Source of the DNA: Nitrospiraceae bacterium
GTDB lineage: Bacteria; Nitrospirota; Thermodesulfovibrionia; UBA6902
Direction: 5' to 3'
Length of the DNA: 59,692 bases
Assembly: GCA_003599505.1 (NCBI GenBank)
Contig: QZKO01000062.1
Span: 1 to 59,692 of the forward strand
Shown: positions 4,774 to 35,793 of the stretch, in pieces
Layout of the letters: every line of letters starts with the position of its first letter
Position numbering within the stretch: position 1 is the first letter of the stretch
Made by a program: the position numbers and the translations under genes
The notes under the pieces: generated by a model
The model's input: only the letters and a program-made list of their open reading frames with translations
Database searches by the model: none
Told to the model about the DNA's origin: nothing

Positions 4774-4787
4774 GGAAAAGCTCAGTA

Positions 4788-13458: not shown

Positions 13459-14020
13459 TCATCCAATCCCCGTTATAACTGTAAATTTTTGCCCCTCGTC
13501 TCAGGGCGCTGTTTCTATTTTCAATAAGGAGAAATTCTGCCGAGTATGCATCATCAGGAGATATGGAAATCAATCCCGCGACTGCCATTATGGTATACCC
13601 CTGAACAATACAGTCGACGGCATATTTTATCACATCCCGACAGAAATCTTTAACTGAGACCGTGATGCTTTCTCCCCGGATATCGAAGGCAATAGATGCC
13701 TGCGCGGCCAGTGCATTCGGGGAAGTATAAGGGAAGAGCAGGGGACTTGCCCCCATCATTCCTTCTTTTAATATATTATTGAAATACTCGTCTTTGATAT
13801 CTTCTACGGCATCGTCAATCCCGATATAAATACTGAGGCCGGGGTTTCCTGCGGGATAAATTATCCCGGCTTCGTCAAGCAGTTTGCCGACGGAGACGAC
13901 AGTCAATAATTCCAGGTCATGCACAAAACGGACCTGTTTCAGTCGCCCGATAAGTTTGTCTAATTCGGGTCCCGTTTCCCTGCTCGTCAAAACGCTTCTC
14001 CCTGTAACAACCGGTTTCAT
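13436..14020 (-). CDS. short ketosynthase-N-domain-like protein lacking the catalytic Cys
   Basis: A 194-residue protein that aligns with the N-terminal half of beta-ketoacyl synthases: LLFPYTSPNALAAQASIAFDIRG matches the pre-active-site region and ITVSVKDFCRD matches ITISTACASGTD of the neighbouring gene. At the catalytic position the Cys is replaced (aligned to Asp), and the half holding the two active-site His is absent. Similar truncated ketoacyl-synt_2-type proteins occur in aryl polyene clusters. It probably scaffolds or regulates the ketosynthases rather than condensing. It is ATGA-coupled to the full ketosynthase upstream and overlaps the PaaK-like gene downstream. Confidence 0.75.
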   Translation of the reverse strand: MKPVVTGRSVLTSRETGPELDKLIGRLKQVRFVHDLELLTVVSVGKLLDEAGIIYPAGNPGLSIYIGIDDAVEDIKDEYFNNILKEGMMGASPLLFPYTSPNALAAQASIAFDIRGESITVSVKDFCRDVIKYAVDCIVQGYTIMAVAGLISISPDDAYSAEFLLIENRNSALRRGAKIYSYNGDWMNEYFRFD

Positions 14021-15198
14021 ATCCCGCCTGTAATAATTACAGAGTTCTGTCCGCCAAAGCCGGCGGACAGCGACATGGCTGTATTTACATTGCTTCGCCT
14101 CGCAATGTCAGGGACATAATCAAGGTCGCATTCAGGGTCTCGTTCAGTGTAATTAATAGTAGGGTGTATTTTTTTGTGGTTAATTGAAAGCAGGCAGCAT
14201 ATTGTCTCAATTGCCCCGGCTGCGCCGAATGAATGTCCGAGCATTGACTTGGTAGAGCTGACCGGCACGCTGTATGCGGCATCTCCAAATACTTTTTTTA
14301 TCGCTAACGTTTCCATCCGGTCATTGTAAATCGTTCCTGTGCCGTGCGCATTGATATAATCAATTTCAGCGGGCTTAATTCCTGCTTCCGATATCGCCTG
14401 GCTCATAGCTGCGACAAGTCCCCTTCCATCCCGGTGCGGGGCTGTCAGATGATTTGCGTCCGCCCTTGAGGCGTAACCCATTATCCTCCCGTATATCTTT
14501 GCATCTCTTTGCGCAGCGTGTTTTTCAGATTCAAGAACCATAAAGGCGGCGCCTTCACCGAGCGCAAGACCGGACCTGTTTTTATCAAAGGGCCTGACCT
14601 TTTCCTCTGTCAGGGCATGAAGGGAATGGAAGCCCATGACCGCAAAATCGCTGAGCACGTCGGCTCCCCCGGCGACTATTACGTTTTCTTCGCCAGAGGA
14701 TATTTTCCTTGCGGCAATTCCTATTGCATCGGTCCCTGAGGCGCAGGCAGTAGATATAGTAATACAACCTCCCTTTATGTTAAACGTCTTTGCGAGAAAC
14801 GAGTTGATATTTGAAAGAGATTCTCCTGAAAAGCTGTTTTTTGTTTTATGCGGATTTCCTTCCATCAATCGCTTTTCTTTGAAAAGTATATTACCCAGCA
14901 CCGTTCCGACTGAAAGGCCGGACTTTCGATCTTCCGGAAGACGCGCGTCTTTCACAGCCATGCGTAATGCCTCTTCCGCGATGAACAGGATTTTGTCTTC
15001 AGAACACACATGTTCTGATCGTCCTGTTATATCGATGCCGGCCATCAACCATTTCCTTCCGGCATCAATTAACGGGGGAGGCATCCACCTGACGGCGTCT
15101 TCTCCGGAGCAGACGGCATCCCAGAATGCCTCAGCCCCCGCAAAAGGTCTCAAGGGCGTAACAAGCCCGATCCCGGTCACAAGTACCCTGTTCTTCAT
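14017..15198 (-). CDS. beta-ketoacyl-ACP synthase (FabF-like), catalytic
   Basis: A 393-residue thiolase-fold enzyme with a complete Cys-His-His set: Cys152 in STACASGTD, a His in NAHGTGTIYND, and a His in SMLGHSFGAAGA. It condenses malonyl-ACP with the growing chain. It is the second full ketosynthase in transcription order, following the methyltransferase gene by 46 bases. A cluster with two KS plus a CLF-like and a truncated KS-like protein resembles aryl polyene systems, where ketosynthases pair with non-catalytic partners. Which one starts and which extends cannot be told from sequence. Confidence 0.9.
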   Translation of the reverse strand: MKNRVLVTGIGLVTPLRPFAGAEAFWDAVCSGEDAVRWMPPPLIDAGRKWLMAGIDITGRSEHVCSEDKILFIAEEALRMAVKDARLPEDRKSGLSVGTVLGNILFKEKRLMEGNPHKTKNSFSGESLSNINSFLAKTFNIKGGCITISTACASGTDAIGIAARKISSGEENVIVAGGADVLSDFAVMGFHSLHALTEEKVRPFDKNRSGLALGEGAAFMVLESEKHAAQRDAKIYGRIMGYASRADANHLTAPHRDGRGLVAAMSQAISEAGIKPAEIDYINAHGTGTIYNDRMETLAIKKVFGDAAYSVPVSSTKSMLGHSFGAAGAIETICCLLSINHKKIHPTINYTERDPECDLDYVPDIARRSNVNTAMSLSAGFGGQNSVIITGGI

Positions 15199-15244: not shown

Positions 15245-16306
15245 TCAGGGTTTATCAATTTTCCATACAGAGGCATTCAGCATAACCGTATCAATTATGA
15301 AACCAACGGCCTCAAAAAGATTTATTGATTCACCTGCGTCATGAAATCCGTTCCAGCCCTTACAAACGCCTTCAAAGAAATCGTGGCACAGAATGCCTCT
15401 CCTTACCCATGAATCTTTTACATATTGCAGCCCCGCGTCAGGGTAGCTGTGGCTCAGGATGCCGAGAGACCCTCCCTTTCTTAATACCCTGAAAATATCT
15501 CTGTACACGTATTGACGTAATTCATAAGGTATGTATGGGTCAGCGCAGGCAAAAAACACAATATCAAAAGAACCATTGTTGAAAGGAAGGGGTGAGCCGA
15601 ATCCCTCCCAAAGCGTAGCGTTTATCCACTGCACGGATTCAGGATTGCGTATTCTGCCCCGGGCCTGCTCAATAAAGATGTCTTTAAAATCAAGCGCTGT
15701 CACTTCTATTTCAGGGGAGCGCTCCTGCATCTGGAGGATACCGAAACCGGGACCATAACACAAGTCAAGCACCCGTGCGTTGCCGGTCCTGCCGGAAAAC
15801 AGCAGGTTTATCAGCACACCCCGTGCAAAACTGAATTCCGCGTTCCCAAGAAAAGCCTCCCATATCAGTGTTGTACTGCCGTCAAAACTGAAGAGCGGGG
15901 AAGAACCGCGTAAAAATTTATCGGCATAAGCCACGCACCGGTCAAAAAAACCTGCCTGACCTTTGAACATTTCCCGGACCATCCCGGATTCATCCCCGGA
16001 TAATTTCAGGTCCGGGTCCTTCCTGTCGTTTAACACATAAAACTTGCCTTCTTTCTTCAGGCATTCACATTCGCACAGGAAATCCATTAACACCGTTACC
16101 ATCCGTAACCTGGTCCTGTCATTGAGCACATAACCGAGTCTTTGCTGAAACAGCTCAACAGCGTCCTCTTCCGTAATCCGGCTCAGGGATGAAAGAACTC
16201 CCTGAATATGGTGCTTATCTATAAATTGCAAAAACCGTTCTGTCAGATATCTGTGAGTCAGCGATTGGCCCAGCAGGGACTTTATGTCTTGCATATCGGC
16301 ATTCAT
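15245..16306 (-). CDS. class I SAM-dependent methyltransferase
   Basis: This 353-residue protein has an N-terminal helical/winged region (about 1-90, FLQFIDKHHIQGVL...DFLCECECLKKEGKFYVL) of the kind used for dimerisation in O-methyltransferases. The SAM-binding motif VLDLCYGPGFGILQM is at about 186-200, with VTALDF as the acidic strand-2 motif. The architecture favours O-methylation of a hydroxylated or aromatic product. It sits between the CLF-like gene (16 bases upstream) and the second ketosynthase. Aryl polyene clusters also carry a methyltransferase, which modifies the aryl head group; this could be the counterpart. Confidence 0.82.
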   Translation of the reverse strand: MNADMQDIKSLLGQSLTHRYLTERFLQFIDKHHIQGVLSSLSRITEEDAVELFQQRLGYVLNDRTRLRMVTVLMDFLCECECLKKEGKFYVLNDRKDPDLKLSGDESGMVREMFKGQAGFFDRCVAYADKFLRGSSPLFSFDGSTTLIWEAFLGNAEFSFARGVLINLLFSGRTGNARVLDLCYGPGFGILQMQERSPEIEVTALDFKDIFIEQARGRIRNPESVQWINATLWEGFGSPLPFNNGSFDIVFFACADPYIPYELRQYVYRDIFRVLRKGGSLGILSHSYPDAGLQYVKDSWVRRGILCHDFFEGVCKGWNGFHDAGESINLFEAVGFIIDTVMLNASVWKIDKP

Positions 16307-16322
16307 AATCCTGCTTTATAAC

Positions 16323-17375
16323 TTACTCTCTTGTAAGCACAACGGCGGCGGCATTTCCCTGAACACCGGACGTAAACACCATTATATGCCGGATTCGATC
16401 AGGGATTGCGCCTCCATTCCTGATAACAGTTCCGGGTATTGTATCATTTTTTATCATGAGAGAAGATAATATTACCTGCCAGAGCGCAGAGGCTGCAAAC
16501 GCATTGCCTGTAAGATGGGTAATACTTGCTGCAGGCATGCCGTCGAGGGATAAGCCGGCGGGTATTTCGCAGTCCGTCATGATGAGAGAAATGTCCCGCG
16601 CCTTCAGGTTCGCTTTAGCCAGACACCGGGTGATAACTTCTGCCGACGCTGTTTCAGGGGCGGAAGGATAACACATTGAAGACGCTCCTGATATCCTGCA
16701 ATGGTGAGACGGAAAACCTTGAGTTCCGCGCTTTTCAACAACTATAGCTCCAGCGCCTTCCGACAAGCCGGCAACGCCCATTCGCAAATAACATGATGCC
16801 GACAATTCGTTCAGTTCTTCGGCGCAAACAACTACTGCCTTGCCGACACATCCCGACTCAAGCATCATGCATGCAAGAATAATGGCCTTCACAGCAGTTT
16901 CCGCGCCGCCTAAAATTGTATGAGCCGGGCCTCTGACCCCATGGCATATAGAAGCATTTCCGGCAGGGGCGTTTAATACCGAATCGGAGAAATGAAGGGG
17001 GCTTGCAGCATCAATTCCTTCCTTTATCAGCGACGCGTGGAAGGCCTGTGTATAATTCAGCGCCCCGTGAGTAATTCCCATAATGAGCGCCGTGTCCGTT
17101 CCACTGAACGGACCGTTTCCGGAATCCTTTATCGCAAGGTCTGCAGCGGCAGACGCATACTTTGAAATATCCGCAGACCTTCTCATGCGTCTGTCGACAA
17201 TACTTTCAAGGAAATCCATATCGGTTATTTCCGCGCAGGGGATCTCATTTAAAGTTGGAAATCTCTTTGTTTTCCTGACGCCCTTAACGCCGTTTTTGAC
17301 ATGGTCCCATAATTGTTCATTACCGATGCCGACAGGAGTTACAGCGCCCGTGCCGGAGATCACCATTTCGCTCAT
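16323..17375 (-). CDS. chain-length-factor-like ketosynthase paralogue without active-site Cys
   Basis: A 350-residue ketosynthase-fold protein (VISGTGAVTPVGIGNEQLW at the start). At the nucleophile site, where active paralogues have TACASG, it reads GPAHTILGGAETA, with Gly aligned to the Cys. The NAHGTGT motif is replaced by a stretch around LIMTDCEIPAG, and the last His motif is also lost. Such proteins pair with an active KS and set chain length in type II systems. Its ATG overlaps the stop of the first catalytic KS gene by 4 bases, the classic KS-CLF arrangement, so it most likely forms a heterodimer with that KS. Confidence 0.83.
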   Translation of the reverse strand: MSEMVISGTGAVTPVGIGNEQLWDHVKNGVKGVRKTKRFPTLNEIPCAEITDMDFLESIVDRRMRRSADISKYASAAADLAIKDSGNGPFSGTDTALIMGITHGALNYTQAFHASLIKEGIDAASPLHFSDSVLNAPAGNASICHGVRGPAHTILGGAETAVKAIILACMMLESGCVGKAVVVCAEELNELSASCYLRMGVAGLSEGAGAIVVEKRGTQGFPSHHCRISGASSMCYPSAPETASAEVITRCLAKANLKARDISLIMTDCEIPAGLSLDGMPAASITHLTGNAFAASALWQVILSSLMIKNDTIPGTVIRNGGAIPDRIRHIMVFTSGVQGNAAAVVLTRE

Positions 17376-18574
17376 ACGTACTCCTTTAATATAACAGCAG
17401 CATTTGAACCGCCGAAACCAAATGAGTTGGAGAGAACGGTTTTAATATTATGACCAACCGCTTGTTTTACAATGTTCAGACCGCACCCGGGATCAGGGTT
17501 TTCATAGTTGAGCGTAGGAGGCACCGTCTTGTGCCTTATGGCTAAAAGAGATATGACCGCTTCCACTGCGCCTGCGCCTCCCAGTATATGCCCTACCATG
17601 GATTTCGTGGAGCTTACAGGTATGTCTCCGGCCCTTTCCCCAAGGGCTGAGACAATCGCATTCGTTTCCATAGTGTCGTTATATTTTGTACCGGTCCCAT
17701 GGGCATTTATGTAATCAATAACCGGCTTGCCGGCATCATTCCACGCCCTTGTTATGGCGAGCGCCGCTGATCTTCCCGAGGGCTCCGGAGCGGTCATATG
17801 GTATGCGTCGGAAGCCTCCCCGTATCCGGCTGCTTCGCCGAGAATCTTCGCACCCCGTCCGATCGCATGTCCGGCTTCTTCGAGGACCAGGATTCCCGCT
17901 CCTTCTCCGAGGGCAAGGCCGTCCCTGTTTCTGTCAAAAGGCCTGCATAAAGAGGGGGACAGCGCCATCAGAGAGTTAAAGCCTGCAAACGTAAACTCGC
18001 ACATCGTGTCATACCCTCCGCATACGGCTATATCGCAGCAGCCGCTCCGGATAGAATTCAAGGCATGGCCTATCGCATTAGAGCCTGAAGCGCACGCGTT
18101 GGAGAATATCATAAAATCTCCCGCAAAGTTAAACTCCCGCATGAGATTTACCGCCTGGTTATAAGCAAGATAATCGTTTAAAAGAGAAAGCCTGGCCCTA
18201 TTCAATCCTTTTGCTATTGTCTCACGGTGAAACAGCTCTCCAGAAAGCATGCCGCCAAGCGTGGTCCCGAGCGATAAAAGCGCCGGCTTGTCTTTTATGA
18301 TATCAACAATGCCTGACTCCAGAAGCGCTTCACGGGCAGTATGCACAAGAAGATGTGTGGCGCGGTCAAGTCTTTTGTCCCTTAAATTATTAAAAAATGT
18401 TTTTTTAAATCCCTTTATTTCCCCGCCCTGTCCGGCCATGTAACCGGAAGCATCGAACGAAGTAATGTTTTTTATGCCGGACACGCCTGCCTGCGTTCTT
18501 TCCCAGTTTATATCTTTTCCTGTCCCATGGGCAGTGGATATGCCGATGCCTGTTATGACAACCCTTCTATTCAT
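17372..18574 (-). CDS. beta-ketoacyl-ACP synthase (FabF-like), catalytic partner of the CLF-like protein
   Basis: A 400-residue enzyme with Cys161 in SNACASGSNAIGH, a His in NAHGTGTKYNDTMET and a His in SMVGHILGGAGAVE, all as in FabF. The C-terminal NSFGFGGSNAAVIL is the usual KS gatekeeping loop. It should carry out chain elongation on the dedicated ACP. It overlaps the small membrane protein gene by 8 bases upstream and the CLF-like gene by 4 bases downstream, suggesting co-translation and a KS-CLF complex. Its retained active site separates it from the two degenerate paralogues nearby. Confidence 0.9.
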   Translation of the reverse strand: MNRRVVITGIGISTAHGTGKDINWERTQAGVSGIKNITSFDASGYMAGQGGEIKGFKKTFFNNLRDKRLDRATHLLVHTAREALLESGIVDIIKDKPALLSLGTTLGGMLSGELFHRETIAKGLNRARLSLLNDYLAYNQAVNLMREFNFAGDFMIFSNACASGSNAIGHALNSIRSGCCDIAVCGGYDTMCEFTFAGFNSLMALSPSLCRPFDRNRDGLALGEGAGILVLEEAGHAIGRGAKILGEAAGYGEASDAYHMTAPEPSGRSAALAITRAWNDAGKPVIDYINAHGTGTKYNDTMETNAIVSALGERAGDIPVSSTKSMVGHILGGAGAVEAVISLLAIRHKTVPPTLNYENPDPGCGLNIVKQAVGHNIKTVLSNSFGFGGSNAAVILKEYV

Positions 18575-18773
18575 GTTTTTTCCTGCGCCTCCGGAGAACC
18601 CCCGGTTTCCCGGACCCGTTGTAAAAAAATGTCAACAACACCGCGATAATCACGAAGATAATCAGAAATCCGGCGATTCCTGTAATAACAACAAAAGCAG
18701 TTAAGGCGCCTGCCAGTATAAAATAAACAATTAATGTGCCAAGAAGCGATCTGAAAAAATAACCGTCTATCAT
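18567..18773 (-). CDS. small two-helix membrane protein
   Basis: A 68-residue protein made almost wholly of two hydrophobic helices (about 7-33 and 35-52) with a strongly basic C-terminus (RRRRKKHE), predicting an inner-membrane protein with its tail in the cytoplasm. No family is recognised. It is tightly packed: ATGA overlap with the deacetylase upstream and an 8-base overlap with the ketosynthase downstream. That makes it a genuine operon member. It could anchor the ketosynthase complex or help transport, but this is a guess from position. Confidence 0.7.
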   Translation of the reverse strand: MIDGYFFRSLLGTLIVYFILAGALTAFVVITGIAGFLIIFVIIAVLLTFFYNGSGKPGVLRRRRKKHE

Positions 18774-19594
18774 CCGTTTAAGCCGAGCACTTCTCTGATC
18801 GGGGCAAAGGATAAATGCCTGAGCAGGCCTTCAATCTTCCCGGGGGTAGCTTTTATATTGAAATAGTGCATAAACTTTCTGCTGAGAGGCAGGTCTATTT
18901 CAGGCTGCTCCATGTCAAATTCCCACGGATGAATATAAACCATCGCCGGGCGCTTTTCCCTGTTTATTCTGTTTAATTTTGAAATAACATAAAAGTATGG
19001 GAACATCCTTAGAGGCAAGCCTCCGCTGAAAGGGAGATTCTCCCGGAAGAACCTTGTGGTAGTCAAAGGGAATTCCCATATCTCACCGTATTCGGTGTTG
19101 AATATACATGGATAAAAAGGGAAATCCCTCTCTCCCATTCCGGTGAGAGGGACCATACTTGAATCATAAATAATACCAAGCTTTCTGAGAGTTCCAAGCG
19201 CCCAGGGAGTTACTTTTCTTATTGACCATTCAGGCGCCCTGAAACCGATCACCCGCTCGTTGGTAATAGAAGATATGACGTCAACAGACCTTGCGACATC
19301 ATCCCCGAATTCCTGGTCCGTAAGTTCAAATATCCTTCTGTGATAAAAACCATGTGTTGCTATTTCATGACCTTCGCTTTTGATTTCCAGGATAAGTTCC
19401 GGCTCTCTTGAGGCAATATATCCAAGTACAAAAAATGTGGCTTTTGTTTTATAACGCCGTAAAAGCGTAAGTACTTTTTCCGTATTTCTTATGACCCGGC
19501 TTTCATAACTGTCCCAGTTGCGCGGGTCCGAACATCCCTCAACGTCGCATATGTGGTACCAGTCTTCGAGATCAACAGTAAGCGCATTTTTCAT
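18770..19594 (-). CDS. polysaccharide deacetylase family protein (XrtA/PEP-CTERM-type)
   Basis: A 274-residue NodB-fold hydrolase. DLEDWYH (8-14) and HEIATHGFYH carry the Asp and His metal ligands, FRAPEWS is the third motif, and IHPWEFD near the C-terminus is the DUF3473-type ending of the group found beside exopolysaccharide loci. These enzymes remove acetyl groups from N-acetyl sugars. There is no signal peptide, so it probably acts in the cytoplasm on a lipid-linked sugar. Together with the GT2 enzyme it suggests that the lipid carries an amino-sugar head group. It is ATGA-coupled to the TPR gene upstream. Confidence 0.87.
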   Translation of the reverse strand: MKNALTVDLEDWYHICDVEGCSDPRNWDSYESRVIRNTEKVLTLLRRYKTKATFFVLGYIASREPELILEIKSEGHEIATHGFYHRRIFELTDQEFGDDVARSVDVISSITNERVIGFRAPEWSIRKVTPWALGTLRKLGIIYDSSMVPLTGMGERDFPFYPCIFNTEYGEIWEFPLTTTRFFRENLPFSGGLPLRMFPYFYVISKLNRINREKRPAMVYIHPWEFDMEQPEIDLPLSRKFMHYFNIKATPGKIEGLLRHLSFAPIREVLGLNG

Positions 19595-20349
19595 TTATAC
19601 CTGTTTAAACGCTCCCGGGCTGAAACCGCCCATTTGCTGTCAGGTTGAGCAGAGACGGCCAGATTCCAGAAGTCGGCAGCGCCTGTTTTATTATTAAATA
19701 CCAGCATTTCAAGGTCGCCGATCCTGCAATAGACTTCAGCTTTTCTGTCAGCCGGCAATTCACCGGATTCGAGCGCGGATTTGTATGCTTTTCTTGCTGT
19801 CTGCCCTCTGTCTTCTCTTTCATCCCAGGCATTATTCGTTTCTCTTTCTTCAAATATTGTTGCCTCTCTTGATTCTTTTGCCAGTTTAGCATAAATGTCT
19901 CCCTGTAGAATAAGGGCGTCTGCGTTTCCCGGTTTATAATAAAATATTTTCTTAAACCCGCCTGCAACTTCATTTTCCCTGTCTATGAGCGCTCCGAATT
20001 TGACATAGAGAATCCAGTAATCACTATTAGTATAATTGCTGCGGTAAAGGTTCTTTATTCTTGCCTGCGCTTCTCTTGCCGTCGACTTCCAATTCGGATC
20101 GCCGGACTCTTTCATTACCCTGCTTTTCTCCAATAAAGCTTCAACAAGGAGAAAGTGATATCCGGTATCTGTATTACCGGAAGCCAATCCGGACAATATT
20201 CCGATCGCTTCGTCATATTTCTCTTCACTCATCAGGCTCAGAGCCTTTTGATAAGCAGCCTCACTGGTTAATGTTTCGGAAGCGGATAAGCTTGCAAACG
20301 TCAGAAAACACAACGCGATGCCGGATATTAACATCTTGAATAATTTCAT
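19591..20349 (-). CDS. exported TPR protein
   Basis: A 252-residue protein with a Sec signal peptide (KLFKMLISGIALCFLTFASLSASE; cleavage probably after SASA-like residues near 24). The rest is helical repeats of the TPR type (AYQKALSLMSEEKYDEAIGIL near 33-53, then PGNADALILQGDIYAKLA). The signal peptide lacks a clear lipobox, so it is likely a soluble periplasmic protein. It lies between the ATP-grasp and deacetylase genes. It may be an adaptor between the inner-membrane exporter and outer-membrane delivery. TPR proteins are too general for a firmer call. Confidence 0.75.
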   Translation of the reverse strand: MKLFKMLISGIALCFLTFASLSASETLTSEAAYQKALSLMSEEKYDEAIGILSGLASGNTDTGYHFLLVEALLEKSRVMKESGDPNWKSTAREAQARIKNLYRSNYTNSDYWILYVKFGALIDRENEVAGGFKKIFYYKPGNADALILQGDIYAKLAKESREATIFEERETNNAWDEREDRGQTARKAYKSALESGELPADRKAEVYCRIGDLEMLVFNNKTGAADFWNLAVSAQPDSKWAVSARERLNRYK

Positions 20350-20395: not shown

Positions 20396-21571
20396 CTATC
20401 TCCTGATTATTCCTCTCATTTCCCTGTCTGATAGAAATGAAAATACTGACGATACGCGCCCTAATAAAGGCAACGGGTCTTTAAGAGAAAATATGTCATC
20501 CTTAATTGTCATATTAAAAAACCCCGGCTTCATCTTGAATCTGTCAGGGTTATAAAGAAAGTGTAACAGATCGCCGGGGACCACAAATCTGCACATTACT
20601 CCCGTCCTGTAATCGTGAACAGGCTCCACATCACCCTTAACAGCTAACTGATACAGCAGATACGGAAAATCCACACCTGCCTCTATCGCAAGCTGGAGCG
20701 AGCCCCAGAATCTTGGGTTTACCTCAAGGAGCTTCGGCTTTCCGTCCCTCGGGTCTATGATAAATTCGACATGAGCTACCCCGGTCCACCTGAAATCCCT
20801 CAGTATGGATTCGGCTATATTTTTCACATCGTCCCTTTTTATGCTTTCACGCAGTGTGCTGGGGCCTCCTTCGACAGGATACTCTCTCAGGCGTCTGTAC
20901 ACAAACGAGGCCCATACTTCAGATTCATTATTCAGCAGAAGGCACACCCCGATCGCGCCCCCCCCGCCTTTTGGAATATATTCCTGAATTATGGGAAAAG
21001 GATAGGTATTGTGGACCTTACAATACGACTCTGCAAAATCCTTCCTGTTTTTCACATATACGATCCCTCTTGAACCGGAGCTTGCGCGCGGTTTTATCAC
21101 AACAGGAAAATCAAGTTTATTTTTTAACTTATCCAGGCCGGAAAGATCATGGACTATGCGTGTTAAGGGGATATCAAGTTTCTTCTGACGCGCATACTCC
21201 ATCAGAAAGGCCTTGTCCTGCAGCTTCATACATAACGCCGTATCCGCAAAAGGAATCTTGCAATACCGGGCAAAACGTCCGGAATGCTCTGTCAGCAGGT
21301 TCTGTGTGGAAAGTTCTGTTGGGAAGATGACGTCATAGCGGTATTCCTTTAATTCGGCTTCAAGCCAGTCCAGGAACCCAGCGCTTTTCTCTACGGGTGA
21401 AGGATATACGATGCGTCTGCTGCAATATTTTGAAAATAATGCAGTTGCAAATCTTGTCTTCTCACCGGCGGCAACGAAGAACCCCCTTTTGCCGAAAGAC
21501 CTCACGACAGCCAGAGATTTGTTCCACATGCCGTCGAGAATTAATACTCTTTTTTTGTCAGCGCAGGTCAT
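20396..21571 (-). CDS. ATP-grasp ligase
   Basis: A 391-residue protein of the carboxylate-amine/thiol ligase superfamily. It has an N-terminal pre-ATP-grasp domain, then PVVIKPRASSGSRGIVYV (about 157-174) with the ATP-binding Lys, IIQEYIPKGGGGAIG, and the metal-binding acidic residue and Asn in LLEVNPRFWGSL. Such enzymes join a carboxylate, through an acyl phosphate, to an amine. In this cluster it could add an amino acid or amine to the lipid or to the sugar freed by the deacetylase. It overlaps the radical SAM gene upstream by 4 bases. Confidence 0.85.
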   Translation of the reverse strand: MTCADKKRVLILDGMWNKSLAVVRSFGKRGFFVAAGEKTRFATALFSKYCSRRIVYPSPVEKSAGFLDWLEAELKEYRYDVIFPTELSTQNLLTEHSGRFARYCKIPFADTALCMKLQDKAFLMEYARQKKLDIPLTRIVHDLSGLDKLKNKLDFPVVIKPRASSGSRGIVYVKNRKDFAESYCKVHNTYPFPIIQEYIPKGGGGAIGVCLLLNNESEVWASFVYRRLREYPVEGGPSTLRESIKRDDVKNIAESILRDFRWTGVAHVEFIIDPRDGKPKLLEVNPRFWGSLQLAIEAGVDFPYLLYQLAVKGDVEPVHDYRTGVMCRFVVPGDLLHFLYNPDRFKMKPGFFNMTIKDDIFSLKDPLPLLGRVSSVFSFLSDREMRGIIRR

Positions 21572-22926
21572 TTTGTTTTCCGGAATAATTTACGTACCAC
21601 AGGCGCATTGTTTCTGAATGCCTTCATAAAACCTTTCACAGCGCGCCGGCTGCGCACATAGTATCTTATATACGCCCATATCAGCAACAGGTGCATTACG
21701 GCAAAAGGCACCTTCCTGTGTCTGAACACCAGATGAAACCCGTCATAAAGATGCCATTTCCTGTGGCGCAGGAGATTTGATATGTTCTTATGGAGGGTCG
21801 TGCCGGGGTAAGGGGTCAGAATAGTGAACTGCGCTACAGAGGTGTCGAGTCTCCTCGCAAACTTTATGGTATTCAGCATCATTTTCAGATCGTCATTGAT
21901 ACCGCCGAGTATATAGCTCGCAAAAACTTCTATTCCGTTCTCTTTCAGCAGGCTCACTGCTTTGTGGGGAACATCGTTGGTCAGGCCTTTATTGAATTCC
22001 TTAAGTGTAGAGGGGTTTACACTCTCAACTCCGATATAAACGGTTTTCGCCCCTGATTTCGACATAAGCCGGACCATGTCCTCATTTTTCAGAAGTGTAT
22101 TAGGTGTTGACAGGCACCACCACCATATATCAAGCCCGCTCTCAATCATCAGTGAGCATATCTCTTTTACACGCTCAGGGGATACCGTGAAATTGTCATC
22201 GCAGAACGCGACCGCCCTGTAACCGTACTTATGGTAAACCTCTTTTATCTCAGCCATTACGGAAGGAGCGCTTCTCGCCCTCCATATATTTCCATACATT
22301 CTCGGCGTAAGACAAAAGTTGCAGTTATGCGTGCATCCCCTGCTTGAAGAAATGACCGCCACCGGTCTTTTCCCTCCATACCTCAGCCCCGTCTTCCTGT
22401 AGGCTTCAATGTCGGCAAGATGTCTTGCCGGTAAAGGCAGGGCGTCAAGGTCCTGTATAAGCTCCGGCAGCGGCGTGCTTACAATGCGGCCCTTGTTTAA
22501 ATAGCTTAAGCCCTTTATTGATGACAGGTCTGTGCCTTTTTCAATTCCTTCCAGGAGCGCAGGGAATGTTATCTCTCCTTCGCCTTTGACTATGAAATCA
22601 ACACAGCCGCTTTTCAGAATTTCTTCATCCGAAAACGCAGGATGGGGCCCTCCCATTACAACGGTGCGGCCCTGGGCCCTGCCCCTTTTTGCTATTTCCA
22701 GGGCGCCCTGAAAACGCTTTGTATCAGTCGTGATTCCGACTATGTCGTAATTTTTAAAATCATAAGCGGAAGGGTTATGCCCCGAAATGCGAAAATCTTC
22801 TACCCTGACGTCATGCCCGCTTTGCTCGGCAACAGCGGCTACATATAGAAGACCCAGCGGAGGAAATACGAAACCAAAGGTCTCAAACACATTTACAGTC
22901 TTCGGATTTGCAAGCAGGATTTTCAA
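21568..22926 (-). CDS. B12-binding-type radical SAM enzyme (second of three)
   Basis: A 452-residue protein. The N-terminal Rossmann-like domain (PPLGLLYVAAVAEQSGHDV, VVMGGPHPAFSDEE, FIVKGEGE) is the cobalamin-domain pattern, and the radical SAM core has C198, C202 and C205 in SRGCTHNCNFC. A later YPGTTLH is typical of this group. It ends with a basic region. Family members include hopanoid-modifying and C-methylating enzymes, so action on lipid-like substrates has precedent. It is ATGA-coupled to the ATP-grasp gene and is 74 bases downstream of another B12-type radical SAM gene. Substrate unknown. Confidence 0.86.
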   Translation of the reverse strand: MKILLANPKTVNVFETFGFVFPPLGLLYVAAVAEQSGHDVRVEDFRISGHNPSAYDFKNYDIVGITTDTKRFQGALEIAKRGRAQGRTVVMGGPHPAFSDEEILKSGCVDFIVKGEGEITFPALLEGIEKGTDLSSIKGLSYLNKGRIVSTPLPELIQDLDALPLPARHLADIEAYRKTGLRYGGKRPVAVISSSRGCTHNCNFCLTPRMYGNIWRARSAPSVMAEIKEVYHKYGYRAVAFCDDNFTVSPERVKEICSLMIESGLDIWWWCLSTPNTLLKNEDMVRLMSKSGAKTVYIGVESVNPSTLKEFNKGLTNDVPHKAVSLLKENGIEVFASYILGGINDDLKMMLNTIKFARRLDTSVAQFTILTPYPGTTLHKNISNLLRHRKWHLYDGFHLVFRHRKVPFAVMHLLLIWAYIRYYVRSRRAVKGFMKAFRNNAPVVRKLFRKTK

Positions 22927-23000: not shown

Positions 23001-24344
23001 TCACGCATTAAGATTCGTCTCATATGTGAAATTCTGTCTGTGCCGGATAGTTTTTTTTATCGTCTGCCTGAATCCGAAGTTCATGGGATAAAAAAAGTTC
23101 TTATATGTCCCGTTACCCCGGAGTCTTTTAAAGATGGAAGAATAAGAAAAACTCTCTTTTAATACCTGATGGTATCCTTCAAGAAGTTTTTCCGGCTTCA
23201 TCAGTTTAGGCATATAGACGACATTGTTTGTATTGTAGTTGGACCAGTCCCTGTCAATCAGTCTCCCTTCAGCGAGCATTTTCGAATAAAGCGCGGTGCC
23301 GGGATACGGCGTCAGTATCGAGAAATAACAGACGTCGATCTTTGCCTTATTAATAAACTCGACCATACGGTCAAATACCCCTTCATCATCATGGTCAAAG
23401 CCCAGCACAAAAGAACCGTCCACGCCAAGCCCATAATCGTGCATCTTCTTTACAACATCAATATAATCCTGCGGCTTGTTGAAGGTCTTGCCGGCATTCG
23501 TGAGGTTGTCAGGGGATAAACTCTCAAAGCCTATTAAAATACCCATGCATCCGCTCTTTCTGAAAAGCATCAGCATCTCATCGTCCTTTGCGATGTTTAC
23601 CGACGTCTGTCCCAGCCACTTGAGGTTGTAAGGGACTATCCTGGTTAATAATTCTTTTGCGTGTCTCCTGCTGCTTATTATGTTGTCGTCGGCAAAAAAG
23701 ACAACGTTCTTCAGGGTAAACCTGCCTTCAAAGGGCTTAAGGTTCCTGATCTCTTTTTCGACCTCATCAACAGGCCTGTTCCTGAATTTGCCTCCGAAGG
23801 AGCTTGTAACGGAGCAGAATTCGCAGTTGTGAGGACATCCTCTTGTAGTTTCCACGGCATGGAGCGGCAGATATCCTTTGTCCCTGTAAAGTCTCCAGTC
23901 CGGCGCAGGACGGTTGGCGAGTGAAGGATAGCCGTTTTCATGCTTATACATTCTCTTGAGGTTTCCCCTGGTGCAGTCGTCAAGAACTTTATCCCATAGG
24001 TCCTCAGCCTCTCCAATTACAACACTGTCGCAGTGCTGAAGCGCCTCTTCCGGCATCTTTGATATATGCATGCCGCCCATCACGACTTTCACTCCCCTTT
24101 CCCTGAACTTATCAGCTATCTCATACCCCCTTTTGGCCGCAGGGGTCATCGCTGTAATCCCCACAAGATCAACATCTGCGCTGAAATTTATCGCCTCTAC
24201 CTTTTCGTCGGTAATGCTGACCTTCCAGTCAGGCGGCGTCAGTGAAGCCACTTTCAGAAGCCCGAGGTAAGGCACGCGGAAATAAAAGTCTCCCCCGAGA
24301 AGACTTTTGGATGCTAACGGTGAGATGAGTAAAAGGTTCTTCAT
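23001..24344 (-). CDS. B12-binding-type radical SAM enzyme (third of three, DUF4070-like C-terminus)
   Basis: A 447-residue protein from MKNLLLISPL; the frame continues 10 codons upstream, but this start sits 4 bases after the DUF4410 stop. The N-terminal domain shows VVMGGMHISKMPEEAL and VVIGEAEDLW, and the radical SAM cluster Cys are C170, C174 and C177 in TRGCPHNCEFC. The C-terminal part (YPGTALYSKMLAEGRLIDRDWSNYN) resembles the DUF4070 extension of B12 radical SAM proteins. It differs enough from the other two B12-type enzymes of the cluster to be a separate step. Substrate unknown. Confidence 0.86.
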   Translation of the reverse strand: MKNLLLISPLASKSLLGGDFYFRVPYLGLLKVASLTPPDWKVSITDEKVEAINFSADVDLVGITAMTPAAKRGYEIADKFRERGVKVVMGGMHISKMPEEALQHCDSVVIGEAEDLWDKVLDDCTRGNLKRMYKHENGYPSLANRPAPDWRLYRDKGYLPLHAVETTRGCPHNCEFCSVTSSFGGKFRNRPVDEVEKEIRNLKPFEGRFTLKNVVFFADDNIISSRRHAKELLTRIVPYNLKWLGQTSVNIAKDDEMLMLFRKSGCMGILIGFESLSPDNLTNAGKTFNKPQDYIDVVKKMHDYGLGVDGSFVLGFDHDDEGVFDRMVEFINKAKIDVCYFSILTPYPGTALYSKMLAEGRLIDRDWSNYNTNNVVYMPKLMKPEKLLEGYHQVLKESFSYSSIFKRLRGNGTYKNFFYPMNFGFRQTIKKTIRHRQNFTYETNLNA

Positions 24345-24348
24345 TTTA

Positions 24349-24885
24349 CTATTGATTAATATTTTTAGAAACAAACTCTGTTGAATAGCGCCCTATTAAT
24401 TCCGTCATTTGAAGCTCTATACTCTCCCCGCTCCTTAATGAAGCGGCTCCGAATCGTTGATATTCTTTCGAATCTTTAAGCTGAGGAGGTGTTCCTTCCA
24501 GCCATTCCGCTGTCATTCGCATATGTGCCTTGCCGGCTCCAAGACCTACCCAGAAACGCAACGCGCGATTACCTGCAGTGAAAACATCAATAAACACTCT
24601 CAAAGTTACGTTTGTTTTATCTGCCTCTCCGGATATTACTTTGATTGACGGAAACTTGTTGTTTATATGTTTTATTATTTCTTTTTCTATAGCCGACAGG
24701 TCATCTTTAGGCAAGGCGTTACCGGCTGTTCTGTCTACTACCTCCAATTTCAGCAAAGAAATATTTTCCTGTATGGCTGTCTGAACATCTTTTATTTCAT
24801 TGTCAAGGATCTCGGCTGCCGGTAAGTTTGAAATTAAGAATATGGAAATTATAACTATGATGCCGATGAATTTATATTTCTTCAT
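24349..24885 (-). CDS. DUF4410-like exported protein
   Basis: A 178-residue protein with a hydrophobic N-terminus (about 6-24, ending NLPAAE) that looks like a signal peptide. The central VTLRVFIDVFTAGNRALRFWVGLGAGKAHM is the conserved core of DUF4410, a periplasmic or envelope family of unknown function. There is no lipobox Cys. It overlaps the SPASM gene by 14 bases and lies 4 bases before a B12-type radical SAM gene, so it belongs to the operon. With the LolA-like and TPR proteins it makes a set of exported components that could carry the product across the periplasm. Confidence 0.72.
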   Translation of the reverse strand: MKKYKFIGIIVIISIFLISNLPAAEILDNEIKDVQTAIQENISLLKLEVVDRTAGNALPKDDLSAIEKEIIKHINNKFPSIKVISGEADKTNVTLRVFIDVFTAGNRALRFWVGLGAGKAHMRMTAEWLEGTPPQLKDSKEYQRFGAASLRSGESIELQMTELIGRYSTEFVSKNINQ

Positions 24886-25981
24886 AGTCCCTCACTTTCT
24901 GTAAGCTGCTTTCCTTTACCCACTTAAAATACACAATCGACCCTATCTGCTTTACAAAGGCATTGAGCAGATTTCTGTCCCCGAGACATTGTTTACAATA
25001 AGGATGTACAACTCTGAAACTGTTAAAGCCCTTCACTACTTCCTGCACCGCCTCCTTCCCGAGATAATCTGCAATTGAAGTGTCTCCGCAATTATATGAT
25101 GAAGTCCTGCCGTCAAAATCCGTACAGCAAAAGGTATAGTCCCCGTTCCATAATATGCCGAAGTTTTCCTGTATCCCCGGACAGTATCCGAATACAGCGT
25201 TCACATTTTTCTTATCGAAGTGTACGGACCAATCCCCCATTACCCTTGTGTGGAATTGTAAATGACTGCTTATATTAATTGTATTTTCCTTAAATGTCCA
25301 TATTTTTTTTATCTGGTTTACAGGAATTTTCCCCCCCTCTAATAAGAGGGGATTAAGGGGCGTGTCCCAATCTTTTGCGATCTTTTCATACCATAACATC
25401 AGATATTTTTTAAGATCGGAGGTCCTGTCCGCGATGCTGACCTCCGGGAAGATCGGGATTATCAGTCTCCTTAGCGGAGATGAAAGAAAGCTGACGGTCA
25501 ATTTCGTACTGCAATTACCTGTTAAAAAATATTTTGCTATTGAGATTATTTTATCGGCATAATCATCAAAAGTTATGCCCTTTGCCCCTCTGTATGAAAA
25601 GGTCTTTTCATCGGGGGTCTGCAGAGAAACGATTATCTGTCCGATACCGGCCCTTATAAGTTCCTGCAGCATCTTTGCATCAAGACGGCTCCCGTTGGTT
25701 GTGAGACAGGTTTCAATACCCCTGTCACTTGCATACTGAACAATGTCAACCAAGCGCGGGTGCAGGGAAGGCTCCCCCATTACATGAAAGAGCAGGAGCT
25801 TTATCAGTCCCTTCCCGGCCACGTTATCTATAATGGAGCGCGCCGTCTCAACAGACATCATCCCTTTCTTTCTTTTCATCTTTGAATCAGGGCAGAACTC
25901 GCAGGAAAAGTTACAGATATTTGTAAGCTCCATGTGCAGCCTGTTGATGGGAAGTTTTATGGCGCCTATTTGTTTATTCAT
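24872..25981 (-). CDS. SPASM-type radical SAM enzyme with an in-frame repeat insertion
   Basis: This 369-residue protein has C23, C27 and C30 in NICNFSCEFC for the radical SAM cluster and a Cys-rich C-terminus (FGYCPGIQ, YTFCCTDFDG, HPYCKQC) of the SPASM type. The start MNKQIGAIKL was chosen over an upstream ATG because the extension is atypical. Around residues 205-218 the protein reads TPLNPLLLEGGK, encoded by a palindromic repeat found in intergenic DNA of many bacteria, so the gene has taken up a small repeat in frame. Function is unknown; operon context ties it to the lipid pathway. Confidence 0.84.
   Translation of the reverse strand: MNKQIGAIKLPINRLHMELTNICNFSCEFCPDSKMKRKKGMMSVETARSIIDNVAGKGLIKLLLFHVMGEPSLHPRLVDIVQYASDRGIETCLTTNGSRLDAKMLQELIRAGIGQIIVSLQTPDEKTFSYRGAKGITFDDYADKIISIAKYFLTGNCSTKLTVSFLSSPLRRLIIPIFPEVSIADRTSDLKKYLMLWYEKIAKDWDTPLNPLLLEGGKIPVNQIKKIWTFKENTINISSHLQFHTRVMGDWSVHFDKKNVNAVFGYCPGIQENFGILWNGDYTFCCTDFDGRTSSYNCGDTSIADYLGKEAVQEVVKGFNSFRVVHPYCKQCLGDRNLLNAFVKQIGSIVYFKWVKESSLQKVRDYEEI
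25331..25360. repeat. palindromic repeat inserted in a radical SAM gene
   Basis: A hairpin CCCCTCT (25334-25340), loop AATA, AGAGGGG (25345-25351), flanked by C-rich and GGGG tracts. On the coding (minus) strand it encodes TPLNPLLLEGGK without breaking the frame. It has the look of a short mobile palindromic element. Confidence 0.65.
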
Positions 25982-26036
25982 GTGTTCTCTTCTTCCACCG
26001 CGCCCCGATATATGGAAGCGCTCCAATGATTACCAT
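25974..26036 (-). CDS. possible 20-residue membrane peptide between lolA-like and SPASM genes
   Basis: ATG at 26036 gives MVIIGALPYIGARWKKRTHE, a hydrophobic stretch with a basic tail. The stop overlaps the start of the SPASM gene (ATGAATAA). The same frame is open without a stop back to the LolA-like stop codon at 26110, adding hydrophilic and hydrophobic residues (VIPAARRVGPSPVSLTI), but holds no standard start there. No Shine-Dalgarno precedes the ATG. It could be a coupled small membrane protein or the decayed end of a larger one. Recorded because it fills an otherwise empty 128-base gap. Confidence 0.25.
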   Translation of the reverse strand: MVIIGALPYIGARWKKRTHE

Positions 26037-26109: not shown

Positions 26110-26856
26110 CTAATTATCGTTGCTCTCAAACTGATTCGTAATTCTCACATCATCAGGAAGCTTTATTTTAAACATTCCGGGATCGACAGCATAGTTGCTC
26201 TGTATGCCTGCAAGTGTTGTAACGGTCCTGTCCCCCTTCGCAGTCGTTATCTCAAATCCTTTTGGAAGCCCTGTCGCTTCATCATAATTGATAATTAAAG
26301 ATGATATATAACGTCCCGCGATCCTGGACAGCGGCGTCAATTTAAAAATTATCCCGTTGTCACCGCGAAACATATTGACGGCAAACCTCTTCTCCATCTC
26401 ATTTAAATCTCCTCCCATGGCGATTGTGAAGAAACTCATTGTGTTGCGCGCTATGAAATTCTCGGAAAGCGTATAAACCTGCGCTTCCTTCTCATCAGGA
26501 TAATAAACCGTCATCGTCCTGCCGTCTATTGCGGTTATGGACTTATGGGGTTTCACGGTCTCCCACCTGAGCATATCAGGTTTTGCCATTATCATCCGGC
26601 CTTCAACGTATATCCTGTCTTTCATGGCGGACAACTGTTTTTCCTGGGTGACAGATGAACGTATTGAATGGATGTCTTTCTGAAGGGCGCCGATCCTTTT
26701 CAGAATCTCCTTTTTCTCATTACCGGAGATTTCCTGAAAATGATCGTCAGATGCTGATACGGCAAAAGGCAACGCAACGATAAGTATCAATAATGAGAAG
26801 GCAGTGGAGGTCCGGAGATTAATCTTTTTCCCTCTCGACACACAACTTTTCAACAT
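26110..26856 (-). CDS. LolA-like outer-membrane lipoprotein carrier family protein
   Basis: About 248 residues with a signal peptide (TSTAFSLLILIVALPFAVSASDD). The mature part has the LolA-type open beta-barrel pattern: YVEGRMIMAKPDMLRWETVKPHKSITAIDGRTMTVYYPDEKEAQVY matches the conserved block with WE and the strand after DG. The start could be ATG 26856 or GTG 26841; both overlap the end of the Tes-like gene. LolA carries hydrophobic cargo across the periplasm, and a LolA-like protein is a standard member of aryl polyene clusters. I infer that it receives the lipid from the MMPL exporter. Confidence 0.83.
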   Translation of the reverse strand: MLKSCVSRGKKINLRTSTAFSLLILIVALPFAVSASDDHFQEISGNEKKEILKRIGALQKDIHSIRSSVTQEKQLSAMKDRIYVEGRMIMAKPDMLRWETVKPHKSITAIDGRTMTVYYPDEKEAQVYTLSENFIARNTMSFFTIAMGGDLNEMEKRFAVNMFRGDNGIIFKLTPLSRIAGRYISSLIINYDEATGLPKGFEITTAKGDRTVTTLAGIQSNYAVDPGMFKIKLPDDVRITNQFESNDN

Positions 26857-28408
26857 GGTTTCTGAAGGTGTATCCCGCGTTATAGGTGCAGAAGGGATAC
26901 AGTTTGCCGTCAGGCGCTGAATAATGCACTGCGCAGCGCCTGATCCTTTGAAGGTCATAGTTGTAATTGTCCATGAAATGCATGCCGAATATGAAGAACG
27001 TCTTGTAGGTATGGCCCTTGTATTCACTGGTCCATGTATACTTCTTGTCGGCATAACCATCGAGTGTTTTCAGGAATTTCAGAAAGGTCAGGCCTTCGGG
27101 CGCATATTCAGCCCTGAAATGTTTATGCAGCGTTTTCAGCAATCCAAGCCTGGAAAACATCTTGAAGCGTCTCTTCCCCGCTGTCTCCGCAAGGCCCTCA
27201 ACATCTTTCAGAATATTAAACAGGTCCAGGAACTTTGTAACAGGCACGGCGTTCCTTTTATTGTCGACAAACAATAAGGACATTGCGCCGCAGTGCGGAT
27301 GACATGTATAATTGGAAACCGATGAGCCCGTAAGTGCCTCCGCGAGTTTTACAAAAGGAGTAGCCGAGTTAAGAGAGAACCAGTCCTTGTAAGGGTCGGT
27401 AAACCCTGTCTGCCTGCCGACGTCGAGCATCATGTCGGCAAGAGTATATCTCTCTCTCATACGGTGCTCCTCAGGATATCGTCCCGTGAAAACAACAGGC
27501 TGTATGGATATGCCTGTCATTACATCCAGGTTTTCAAAGGCAAGACGGATCAGGTCTCCTATCTGGTGGTCATTCACCCCTCTGATTATTGTTGGAACAA
27601 AGATTACCCGCAACCCGGCCTTTCTTGCAGATTCGAGTACCTTCAGCTTTGTCTCAAGAAACCTCCGACCTCTTATTTTTTCAAACACATCGTCGGTAAC
27701 GCCGTCCATCTGCAGGTATATGTACTGAAGTCCCGCCTCCCGCGCCTTCATCGCAAATTCAGGATCAGAAAGCTTAATGCCGTTTGTCGCAACCTGAATA
27801 TGTGTGAAGCCAAGATCTTTAGTGGCCTTAACAATGTCAAAAAACCTCGGATGGATTGTTGGTTCGCCCCCTGTATACTGGACAGTCGTACAGGGCGCGG
27901 GTTTTGCCTCACGAAGTCTTTTAAGCATGAGATAAATCTCATCATATGACGGCTCATACCGGGTTTTATTGGAATCCGCAAAACAAATATTGCATTTGAT
28001 ATTGCACCTGGCTGTAATATCGACATTGGCGACAGCGGTATGGGTCAAATGCATATTGCATATGCCGCATTCCGTAGGACATTTATAAGCGTTTTTTACC
28101 TGGGGATTGGAAAACCCGCTTCCGTCCCTGAAATGCCATCTTTCCATCCCGGAGAATATTTTTACATCGGAAGAAATAATATCGTTGAATACCCCGTGGT
28201 CTTTACATTCCTTGGTCATCAGCACCTTCCCGTCATTTTCGTATTCTCTTGCAGGAATGATCGAGAGACATTCGGGACAGAGTGAAAGTGTTGACTTGGG
28301 AAGTCCTTTGGTTACCGGTATAATCGGACTGCCTGTCAGGGTGGTTTCCGTTTCTAACCTGTTTTTAATTGCAAGCGGTCTGTTTAAGACATCAGATCTT
28401 GTGAGCAT
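26819..28408 (-). CDS. radical SAM protein of the tetraether synthase (Tes/MJ0619)-like family
   Basis: A 529-residue protein with an unusual Cys layout. CPEC at 44-47 and a Cys at 68 form a rubredoxin-like N-terminal site; C110, C114 and C117 (CPTECGIC) bind one cluster; C135, C139 and C142 (ARCNIKCNIC) are the radical SAM ligands. A C-terminal set includes CHPHC and RRCAVHYSAPDGKLYPFC with the following NAGY. This pattern matches my knowledge of the MJ0619/Tes group, which in archaea couples lipid chains, with bacterial relatives implicated in membrane-spanning lipids. Here it follows an acyltransferase by 12 bases. Whether it joins chains is inference. Confidence 0.8.
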   Translation of the reverse strand: MLTRSDVLNRPLAIKNRLETETTLTGSPIIPVTKGLPKSTLSLCPECLSIIPAREYENDGKVLMTKECKDHGVFNDIISSDVKIFSGMERWHFRDGSGFSNPQVKNAYKCPTECGICNMHLTHTAVANVDITARCNIKCNICFADSNKTRYEPSYDEIYLMLKRLREAKPAPCTTVQYTGGEPTIHPRFFDIVKATKDLGFTHIQVATNGIKLSDPEFAMKAREAGLQYIYLQMDGVTDDVFEKIRGRRFLETKLKVLESARKAGLRVIFVPTIIRGVNDHQIGDLIRLAFENLDVMTGISIQPVVFTGRYPEEHRMRERYTLADMMLDVGRQTGFTDPYKDWFSLNSATPFVKLAEALTGSSVSNYTCHPHCGAMSLLFVDNKRNAVPVTKFLDLFNILKDVEGLAETAGKRRFKMFSRLGLLKTLHKHFRAEYAPEGLTFLKFLKTLDGYADKKYTWTSEYKGHTYKTFFIFGMHFMDNYNYDLQRIRRCAVHYSAPDGKLYPFCTYNAGYTFRNHVEKLCVEREKD

Positions 28409-28420
28409 AACCCCCCTGGA

Positions 28421-29281
28421 CTATATCGGCCTGAAATTGTACCATTGATCAGGGTACATTATAATATATTTTTCGAGAATTCTTACAGTTCTTTTAAGCG
28501 CTTCATATTCCTGCTTTTCATCAGCAATCAACAGGGGTTTCTCGATGATCCCTTTATAACCATCCCCTTCCCTGACAACAAAGGCAACAATAAGAGGCGC
28601 CCCCGATAATCTGCTCAGGATAAAAGGGCCTTGGGGGAATTTGGCCGGTCTGCTGAAAAAATCTACTGTCATGTTGTCCGGCCCTTCATGGTACCTGTCT
28701 ATCAACATTGCAACTACCTCCCCGTTCTCAAGCGCCTTCAGAATTTCAATTGTTGAAAACGGTGAACCCAGTCCTATAGTCTTTACATCATGCTTCTCTC
28801 TATAACGTCTGCGCATATAATCGATTTCCATGTCAGCGTCGGTAATCGTTACAACGTTCATTTTTAACCCATAACTTCCAAAAAAAATACCCCCCAGCTC
28901 CCAGTTGCCCAAATGCGCGGTAAGCAGAATTACTCCTTTATTCATCCGGAGGGCGGCATGCAGGTTTTCTTCACCATCAAAACTGATAATTTTTTCTATG
29001 ACGGCATTCTTGTCCAGATGAGTAAACCGTCCATAATCAACAAGATATTTGCTGTAATTCCGGAAAGCCCGCAATGCCAGACCTGATATTTCCTTCTCAG
29101 ACAAATGAGGCAATGCCTTTCTTAGATTCTGTTTGACATTTTTTGCGGCAATTCTATAAAAGAAGTAACTTAATCCGGCGATACTTTGAGCAATGAGATA
29201 TGACAGGTACCTGGGAATATACCTTGTCCATTTTATCCCATAGTTATAGACCAAAGGAATATTGAGAAAATGTTTTGGCAA
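28421..29281 (-). CDS. LpxL/HtrB-like lysophospholipid acyltransferase
   Basis: A 286-residue inner-membrane acyltransferase of the lipid A late-acyltransferase family. The catalytic HX4E motif is HLGNWE (123-128), LIDRY and the later PFILSRLSGAPLIVAFV are the other blocks. An N-terminal hydrophobic segment (about 27-45) anchors it. It moves an acyl chain from ACP to a lipid acceptor. It is the first gene of the 27-kb operon, next to the control region. An LpxL-like acyltransferase is also found in aryl polyene clusters, where it attaches the polyene to its lipid anchor, so it may play that part here. Confidence 0.87.
   Translation of the reverse strand: MPKHFLNIPLVYNYGIKWTRYIPRYLSYLIAQSIAGLSYFFYRIAAKNVKQNLRKALPHLSEKEISGLALRAFRNYSKYLVDYGRFTHLDKNAVIEKIISFDGEENLHAALRMNKGVILLTAHLGNWELGGIFFGSYGLKMNVVTITDADMEIDYMRRRYREKHDVKTIGLGSPFSTIEILKALENGEVVAMLIDRYHEGPDNMTVDFFSRPAKFPQGPFILSRLSGAPLIVAFVVREGDGYKGIIEKPLLIADEKQEYEALKRTVRILEKYIIMYPDQWYNFRPI

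Positions 29282-35164: not shown

Positions 35165-35793
<629 letters not shown>

Follow-up and report, generated by a model that had tools for sequence, protein, structure and literature searches.

The archaeal tetraether lipid synthase (Tes) MJ0619 links two saturated lipid tails at their terminal sp3 carbons; the reaction consumes two molecules of S-adenosylmethionine (SAM) and passes through a C–S bond to the C-terminal cluster of the enzyme (PMC9433317). Homologues of this enzyme are already known from several hundred bacterial genomes (Zeng 2022, PMC8941075). Such homologues and ladderane-type gene clusters of non-anammox bacteria have each been reported separately (PMC8941075, PMC11868695, PMC9902471); in a search of the open literature, with subscription papers and preprints outside its scope, two papers that name both do not appear to link them, and we found no report that joins Tes with a ladderane-type operon. 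Here we analyze a 59,692-nucleotide stretch of a Nitrospiraceae genome (contig QZKO01000062.1; the whole stretch is hereafter called the window), in which a tes gene (26819-28408, minus strand) stands near the head of a ladderane-type lipid operon. With a probability of roughly 0.5, we propose that this bacterial Tes-family enzyme has been recruited as a late tailoring step of the operon, in which it would join two tails. A preliminary description of the window had called a Tes-like enzyme in a polyketide-type operon unusual; because bacterial Tes is already known from several hundred genomes, the enzyme alone is no surprise, and the remark holds for the operon setting.

The tes reading frame starts with ATG, encodes 529 residues and, judged by sequence, belongs with the tetraether lipid synthases. 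It scores 505.9 bits (E=1e-151) against NCBIfam NF045702 (Tes), passing the curated whole-protein cut-off of 450, and its alignment with MJ0619 (7tol) spans residues 27-519 (E=6.6e-117); in the host genome it is the only over-cut-off member of this family. When a model predicted with 30 homologues as input (mean predicted local distance difference test score 85; predicted template modelling (TM) score 0.87) was used in a fold search, the top match was Tes itself (7TOM/7TOL, TM 0.82-0.83, E 1e-50 to 1e-51) and no unrelated radical SAM family, the next-best solved fold being MoaA with a TM of 0.35. The preliminary description had reported a 529-residue protein with CPEC, CPTECGIC, CxxxCxxC and a Cys-rich C-terminus, and had recognized in these the layout of the MJ0619/Tes family; all of these elements are present, and the family score, the MJ0619 alignment and the fold match bear the assignment out. 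The TrsS family was rejected for this protein (334 bits against a cut-off of 490). The Pfam zinc-ribbon entry that it matches still bears the name HMPTM.

Each ligand named for MJ0619 has a counterpart in the alignment, so all four metal sites are kept. In MJ0619, the rubredoxin iron is held by C9, C12, C33, and H36, the N-terminal cluster by C73, C77, C80, and a His, and the SAM cluster by CX3CX2C; the C-terminal cluster has a labile Met439, and Tyr459 is conserved across 1,000 archaeal homologues (PMC9433317). The corresponding residues of the window Tes are, by alignment, C44 and C47 (the CPEC motif, C44-C47), C68, and H71 for the rubredoxin site (CX2C...CX2H); C110, C114, and C117 (CPTECGIC, C110-C117) with H120 for the N-terminal auxiliary [4Fe-4S] cluster (3 Cys + His); and C373, C492, and C507 with M476 as the labile Met for the C-terminal auxiliary cluster, Y496 being the conserved Tyr. 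The radical SAM CX3CX2C motif is formed by C135, C139, and C142 (CxxxCxxC). Further cysteines toward the C-terminus are at 369, 373, 492, 507, and 523; the Cys ligands of the C-terminal cluster were assigned from conservation, whereas Met439 and Tyr459 are named in PMC9433317. Arg210, Gln268, and Arg275 of MJ0619 are also conserved. The ligand set and Y496 are present in 11 of the 12 rows of the Tes clade described below, so the auxiliary cluster ligands, whose retention in close relatives had been at issue, are kept except in L011. There (L011 10001-11496), the assembled Tes gene has a frame break close to the 3' end, and the C-terminal part is encoded in another frame. Because all ligands are kept, chemistry of the MJ0619 coupling type would be the most likely one for the window Tes.

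Near the SAM site, where MJ0619 has N108, A109, F198, S271, and Y343, ten of the 12 clade rows carry D, S, M, V, and L instead (D145, S146, M234, V306, and L378 in the window Tes). At four of these five positions, the N, A, F, and Y of MJ0619 are retained by the other Tes in the same alignment, four from bacteria and one from an archaeon. Asn108 and Ala109 belong to a hydrogen-bond network that closes the active site of MJ0619 (PMC9433317). The replacements would fit a different substrate, without being proof of one.

The operon begins with an LpxL-like (Lip_A_acyltrans) acyltransferase gene (28421-29281, minus strand; TTG start, 286 aa; Pfam E=7e-37), whose product carries the HX4E motif as HLGNWE at residue 123. 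Exactly 12 bases (28409-28420), the spacing given in the preliminary description, separate it from tes, and this gap contains AGGGGGG, a ribosome-site-like run. Downstream of tes is a gene for a LolA-like periplasmic lipid carrier (26110-26856, minus strand; LolA2_flexi E=1.3e-25, below its cut-off; PF03548 E=2.6e-16), whose likely ATG start overlaps the 3' end of tes when the junction is read. The placement at the head of a lipid operon also stands, as LpxL and Tes form the 5' end of a gene run that continues on the minus strand from 29281 (LpxL) to 2316 with gaps or overlaps that are mostly short. Across phyla, the LpxL proteins of such cassettes (that of the congener G007 included) are 43-69% identical to the window LpxL, and other LpxL copies in the same genomes are 23-32% identical to it.

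Further downstream, the window from 19594 to 2316 is collinear, position by position, with kuste3351-3335 of Kuenenia, part of the published candidate operon for the ladder-shaped ladderane lipids of anammox bacteria, a comparison of gene order made via published annotations in which AmxMT1 is the one gene compared by sequence. The SAM methyltransferase in the position of kuste3347 (15245-16306, minus strand; 8hd2 E=4.6e-137) is 57% identical over 351 columns to AmxMT1 of Brocadia fulgida (8HD2), a protein that binds an anammox acyl carrier protein (ACP; PMC9821293). Among 396 Nitrospirota genomes, an AmxMT1-type gene was found in this genome and G039 only; G007 (not seen in the 396-genome sample) has one at 61%. 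The AmxMT1 relative and the order of the genes led us to reject a generic type II polyketide or aryl polyene operon as the best label. What the preliminary description had called a polyketide-type operon is rather a ladderane-type operon of type II fatty acid synthesis (FASII) genes; this label apart, its Tes family assignment, LpxL pairing, and operon-head position stand, while its suggestion that the enzyme may couple chains or build a membrane-spanning lipid is a hypothesis.

G007, which belongs to the same genus, has the operon without Tes. One of its contigs carries LpxL (69%), LolA (61%), a VTT-like protein, SPASM A (78%), and the start of B12 radical SAM B, and the remaining operon genes sit on another. 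On contig C115 (L095 2799-4383), a single base separates LpxL from LolA and the place of Tes is empty; no Tes was found elsewhere in this 92%-complete genome. The possibility that Tes had been lost at a contig edge, suspected from contig C131, was rejected because contig C115 spans the LpxL-LolA junction. Since G007 is nested among Tes-bearing operons in the trees of LpxL (98/99) and of B12 radical SAM B (99/96), loss of Tes appears to be the simpler reading of its absence. The operon flanks differ between the window genome and G007. That the rest of the operon can exist without Tes points to a tailoring step, and Tes is probably an added one.

Over-cut-off Tes occurs in 7 of the 396 sampled Nitrospirota genomes and in none of the nine congeners searched. 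In a tree of 54 Tes sequences, the window protein falls within a clade of 12 rows (support 100/100), apart from other bacterial and archaeal Tes, with members from Nitrospirota, Myxococcota or other Deltaproteobacteria, a Desulfobacteraceae bin, and one unplaced bacterium; because L012 is G374 and L005 is G415, the rows represent ten distinct genomes. LpxL lies directly upstream of Tes in nine of these ten, the contig of G415 holding only the LpxL end. Outside the clade, no LpxL was found beside Tes at the bacterial loci examined (Glassbacteria, Dadabacteria, Nitrospirota family f28, Latescibacterota, and Bryobacteraceae), some of which are on short contigs. A radical SAM gene of the TIGR04072 type is present in 9/10 clade genomes versus 0/4 of the other Tes-bearing bacteria tested (hypergeometric 10/2002, about 0.005 by hand, for rows that are related to one another). 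Parts of the ladderane-type operon come after LpxL-Tes-LolA in G039, G374, G415, and L009, either on that contig or on a second one. Most of the genomes are drafts assembled from metagenomes. Two further arrangements were observed. In the deltaproteobacterium L007 (13100-20552), the Tes cassette is followed by an ABC-2 exporter, ketosynthases, a BtrH_N/DUF4872 protein, and a FabH-like protein, and in two Methanomassiliicoccaceae contigs (L019 9956-12926; L020 9584-12910), Tes is followed, by reading only, by a geranylgeranyl-reductase-like flavoprotein.

A route can be proposed in which the FASII genes, the B12/SPASM radical SAM enzymes, and the CrtI-like flavoprotein would assemble, on the ACP encoded in the operon, an acyl chain of an unusual kind (polyunsaturated or cyclised), which the LpxL-like enzyme would transfer from the ACP to a membrane lipid. 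It is because of these partner genes that an ACP-built chain placed on a lipid by LpxL is suggested as the substrate, and from there onward all steps are what we infer. Two such tails would enter the tunnel of Tes with their omega-ends, and two SAM would in turn abstract hydrogen atoms there; the first radical would be parked as a C–S bond on the C-terminal [4Fe-4S] cluster before the sp3–sp3 C–C bond is closed. The product would be a lipid joined tail to tail, macrocyclic or membrane-spanning, which LolA and the MMPL exporter may carry toward the outer membrane. A similar set in the aryl polyene clusters of E. coli, made up of a lysophospholipid acyltransferase, a LolA-like chaperone, and an RND (resistance-nodulation-division) exporter, has been proposed to anchor the chain and deliver it to the outer membrane (PMC8253772). 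We tentatively suggest, as a possibility that falls well short of even odds, that the chain is ladderane-like or polyunsaturated, made outside anammox bacteria, and that two of them are joined tail to tail by Tes into a lipid class not described so far.

Several points weigh against the joining of two operon-built tails by Tes. Bacterial Tes as a group have no known product (PMC11868695), and the substrate of MJ0619 is saturated isoprenoid tails, whereas the tails here may or may not be saturated at the end. The altered residues near the SAM site could mean changed chemistry rather than a changed substrate. AmxMT1 excepted, the gene-order match to Kuenenia leans on published annotations. In L007, L008, L041, and L011, Tes and the ladderane-type operon are on different contigs, and in the clade member L006, a GT2 gene adjoins Tes where LpxL would be, the ladderane-type radical SAM gene of that genome lying in a differently built cluster. 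In the literature, a different guess has been made for bacterial Tes (PMC8941075), namely that it couples ordinary (for example, iso-branched) phospholipid tails, giving membrane-spanning lipids like branched glycerol dialkyl glycerol tetraethers or diabolic acid, in which case the operon placement would serve only co-regulation. We consider this rather unlikely for the window, as the clade is accompanied across phyla by LpxL and ladderane-type genes, for which an enzyme acting on phospholipids in general would have no use, and its specific residues near the SAM site speak in the same direction. The host genome (G000) contains a 1449-aa DUF2229-bearing open reading frame (ORF; G000:C27:19696-20328), and DUF2229 is presumably a domain of PlsA/Ger-type ether-lipid enzymes, so ether lipids are possible; there is no sign of an archaeal backbone, because the same genome has no GGGP synthase above the cut-off.

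The clade-specific residues, together with the HMPTM name of the zinc-ribbon entry, could also be counted for a chemistry without C–C coupling, in which Tes would insert sulfur into, methylate or otherwise functionalise a chain end or another small molecule. MJ0619 itself yields a sulfur-bearing lipid when SAM is limiting (PMC9433317), but every cluster ligand, with the labile Met among them, is kept, and so is the conserved Tyr, which fits a coupling mechanism and makes such a role improbable. The MJ0619 enzyme further produces macrocyclic archaeol by intramolecular coupling (PMC9433317), and an operon of ladderane type would suit an enzyme whose coupling stays inside a single chain and forms a ring there (a ladderane or another carbocycle) rather than linking a pair of chains. 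This is quite improbable: the Kuenenia candidate list is without a Tes counterpart and G007 keeps its operon without Tes, and therefore Tes is not needed for the core product. That the gene is non-functional or misassembled, a contaminant or relic in a draft genome, seems scarcely credible even though the close relatives are metagenome-assembled drafts, given that the 529-aa frame is intact, that the LpxL-Tes-LolA order recurs in independent assemblies from several phyla, that base composition is alike along the length of the operon, and that the host genome is 95% complete with 1.7% contamination. Archaeal contamination was ruled out by the bacterial operon, the bacterial sister sequences, and the lack of an over-cut-off GGGP synthase.

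The other genes of the operon are likewise all on the minus strand. LolA is followed, in relatives too, by a radical SAM/SPASM protein, here called A (24872-26026; PF04055, PF13186), then by a DUF4410 protein (24349-24885; PF14366) and B12-binding radical SAM protein B (23001-24374; PF02310+PF04055), a marker for this operon type with 61-84% identity in G039, G374, G415, G007, L011, and L009. Next are B12-binding radical SAM protein A (21568-22926) and an ATP-grasp protein (20396-21571), both assigned by family scan, and a TPR-like protein (19591-20349) without a strong family match. In Kuenenia, kuste3351 to kuste3343 are annotated as deacetylase-like, ACP, FabF, non-canonical FabF, SAM methylase, FabF, unknown, phenylacetyl-CoA ligase, and SAM radical proteins (PMC2649909, PMC4790861). 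Their positions are taken in the window by a polysaccharide deacetylase-like protein (18770-19594; TIGR03006 269.9 bits, just under the cut-off of 276.2); a small hydrophobic 68-aa ORF (18567-18770; same spot in four genomes); ketosynthase KS1 (17372-18574; Cys/His/His present); KS2 (16323-17375), which is chain-length-factor-like and has no active Cys motif; the AmxMT1-type methyltransferase; ketosynthase KS3 (14017-15198; Cys/His/His present); a degenerate KS-like protein (13436-14020); a FlxY/PaaK-like AMP ligase (12154-13458); and radical SAM/SPASM protein B (11105-12157). The one doubtful spot in this collinearity is kuste3350: its Kuenenia annotation is a 66-aa ACP, and at this position the window and three relatives carry a hydrophobic ORF of 64-68 aa.

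The Kuenenia genes from kuste3342 to kuste3335 are annotated as SAM radical, FabG, ACP, FabZ, SAM methylase, membrane protein, phytoene desaturase, and glycosyltransferase (PMC2649909, PMC4790861). The window has, in the same order, rSAM_ladder_B12 (9744-11108; TIGR04072 cut-off 360, score 400 bits, far less than the 590-641 bits reached by the best copies in related genomes); FabG (8900-9712); an ACP (8649-8900) with the motif LDSIDVLEL; FabZ (8209-8652); a SAM methyltransferase (7302-8174); an MMPL/HpnN-like RND lipid exporter (4788-7289); a CrtI/carotenoid isomerase-like flavoprotein (3319-4830); and a GT2 glycosyltransferase (2316-3329). Searches of solved structures with FabZ and the ACP gave general matches only. 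A second TIGR04072-like radical SAM gene of the host genome (G000:C2:94095-95441) scores 323 bits, under the family cut-off. Outside the operon, two small overlapping genes at 35165-35745 are toxin-antitoxin-like by reading only.

Two questions meet at this locus, the role of bacterial Tes homologues and the working of ladderane-type operons, and both become testable because the clade supplies a clear substrate hypothesis. The window and G007 offer the natural comparison, being from the same genus and having otherwise matching operons with and without Tes. A Tes-based bacterial route, if true, would add a source of membrane-spanning lipids in sediments and affect how these are read.

Compared with the archaeal Tes or GDGT-MAS enzymes (MJ0619, Saci_0703, MA_1486), the window protein shares full-length homology, four metal sites, the labile Met, the conserved Tyr, and the predicted fold; it differs in its bacterial host without an over-cut-off GGGP synthase, in the positions equivalent to N108/A109/F198/S271/Y343, and in the location of its gene in a FASII-type operon with LpxL. 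The bacterial Tes homologues of Acidobacteria, Planctomycetota, Chloroflexota, and others (Zeng 2022; Black Sea metagenome-assembled genomes, 2025) belong to the same family, with a putative function, but LpxL does not adjoin Tes at the other bacterial loci examined, and none of the four genomes of this kind that were tested has the ladderane-type radical SAM gene. Mss (with Ger), the bacterial membrane-spanning lipid synthase, is reported to couple fatty acyl tails in bacteria and is handled in the literature as a protein separate from Tes. Aryl polyene and flexirubin clusters resemble the window operon in their FASII genes, lysophospholipid acyltransferase, LolA-like chaperone, and RND exporter toward the outer membrane, whereas neither radical SAM enzymes nor Tes appear in the published E. 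coli aryl polyene gene list. Outside anammox bacteria, ladderanes are not known. The anammox operon kuste3352-3335 is alike in gene content, collinear from kuste3351 to 3335, and in AmxMT1, to which the window has a relative at 57%; its list is without Tes, LpxL or LolA, whereas the window operon has all three.

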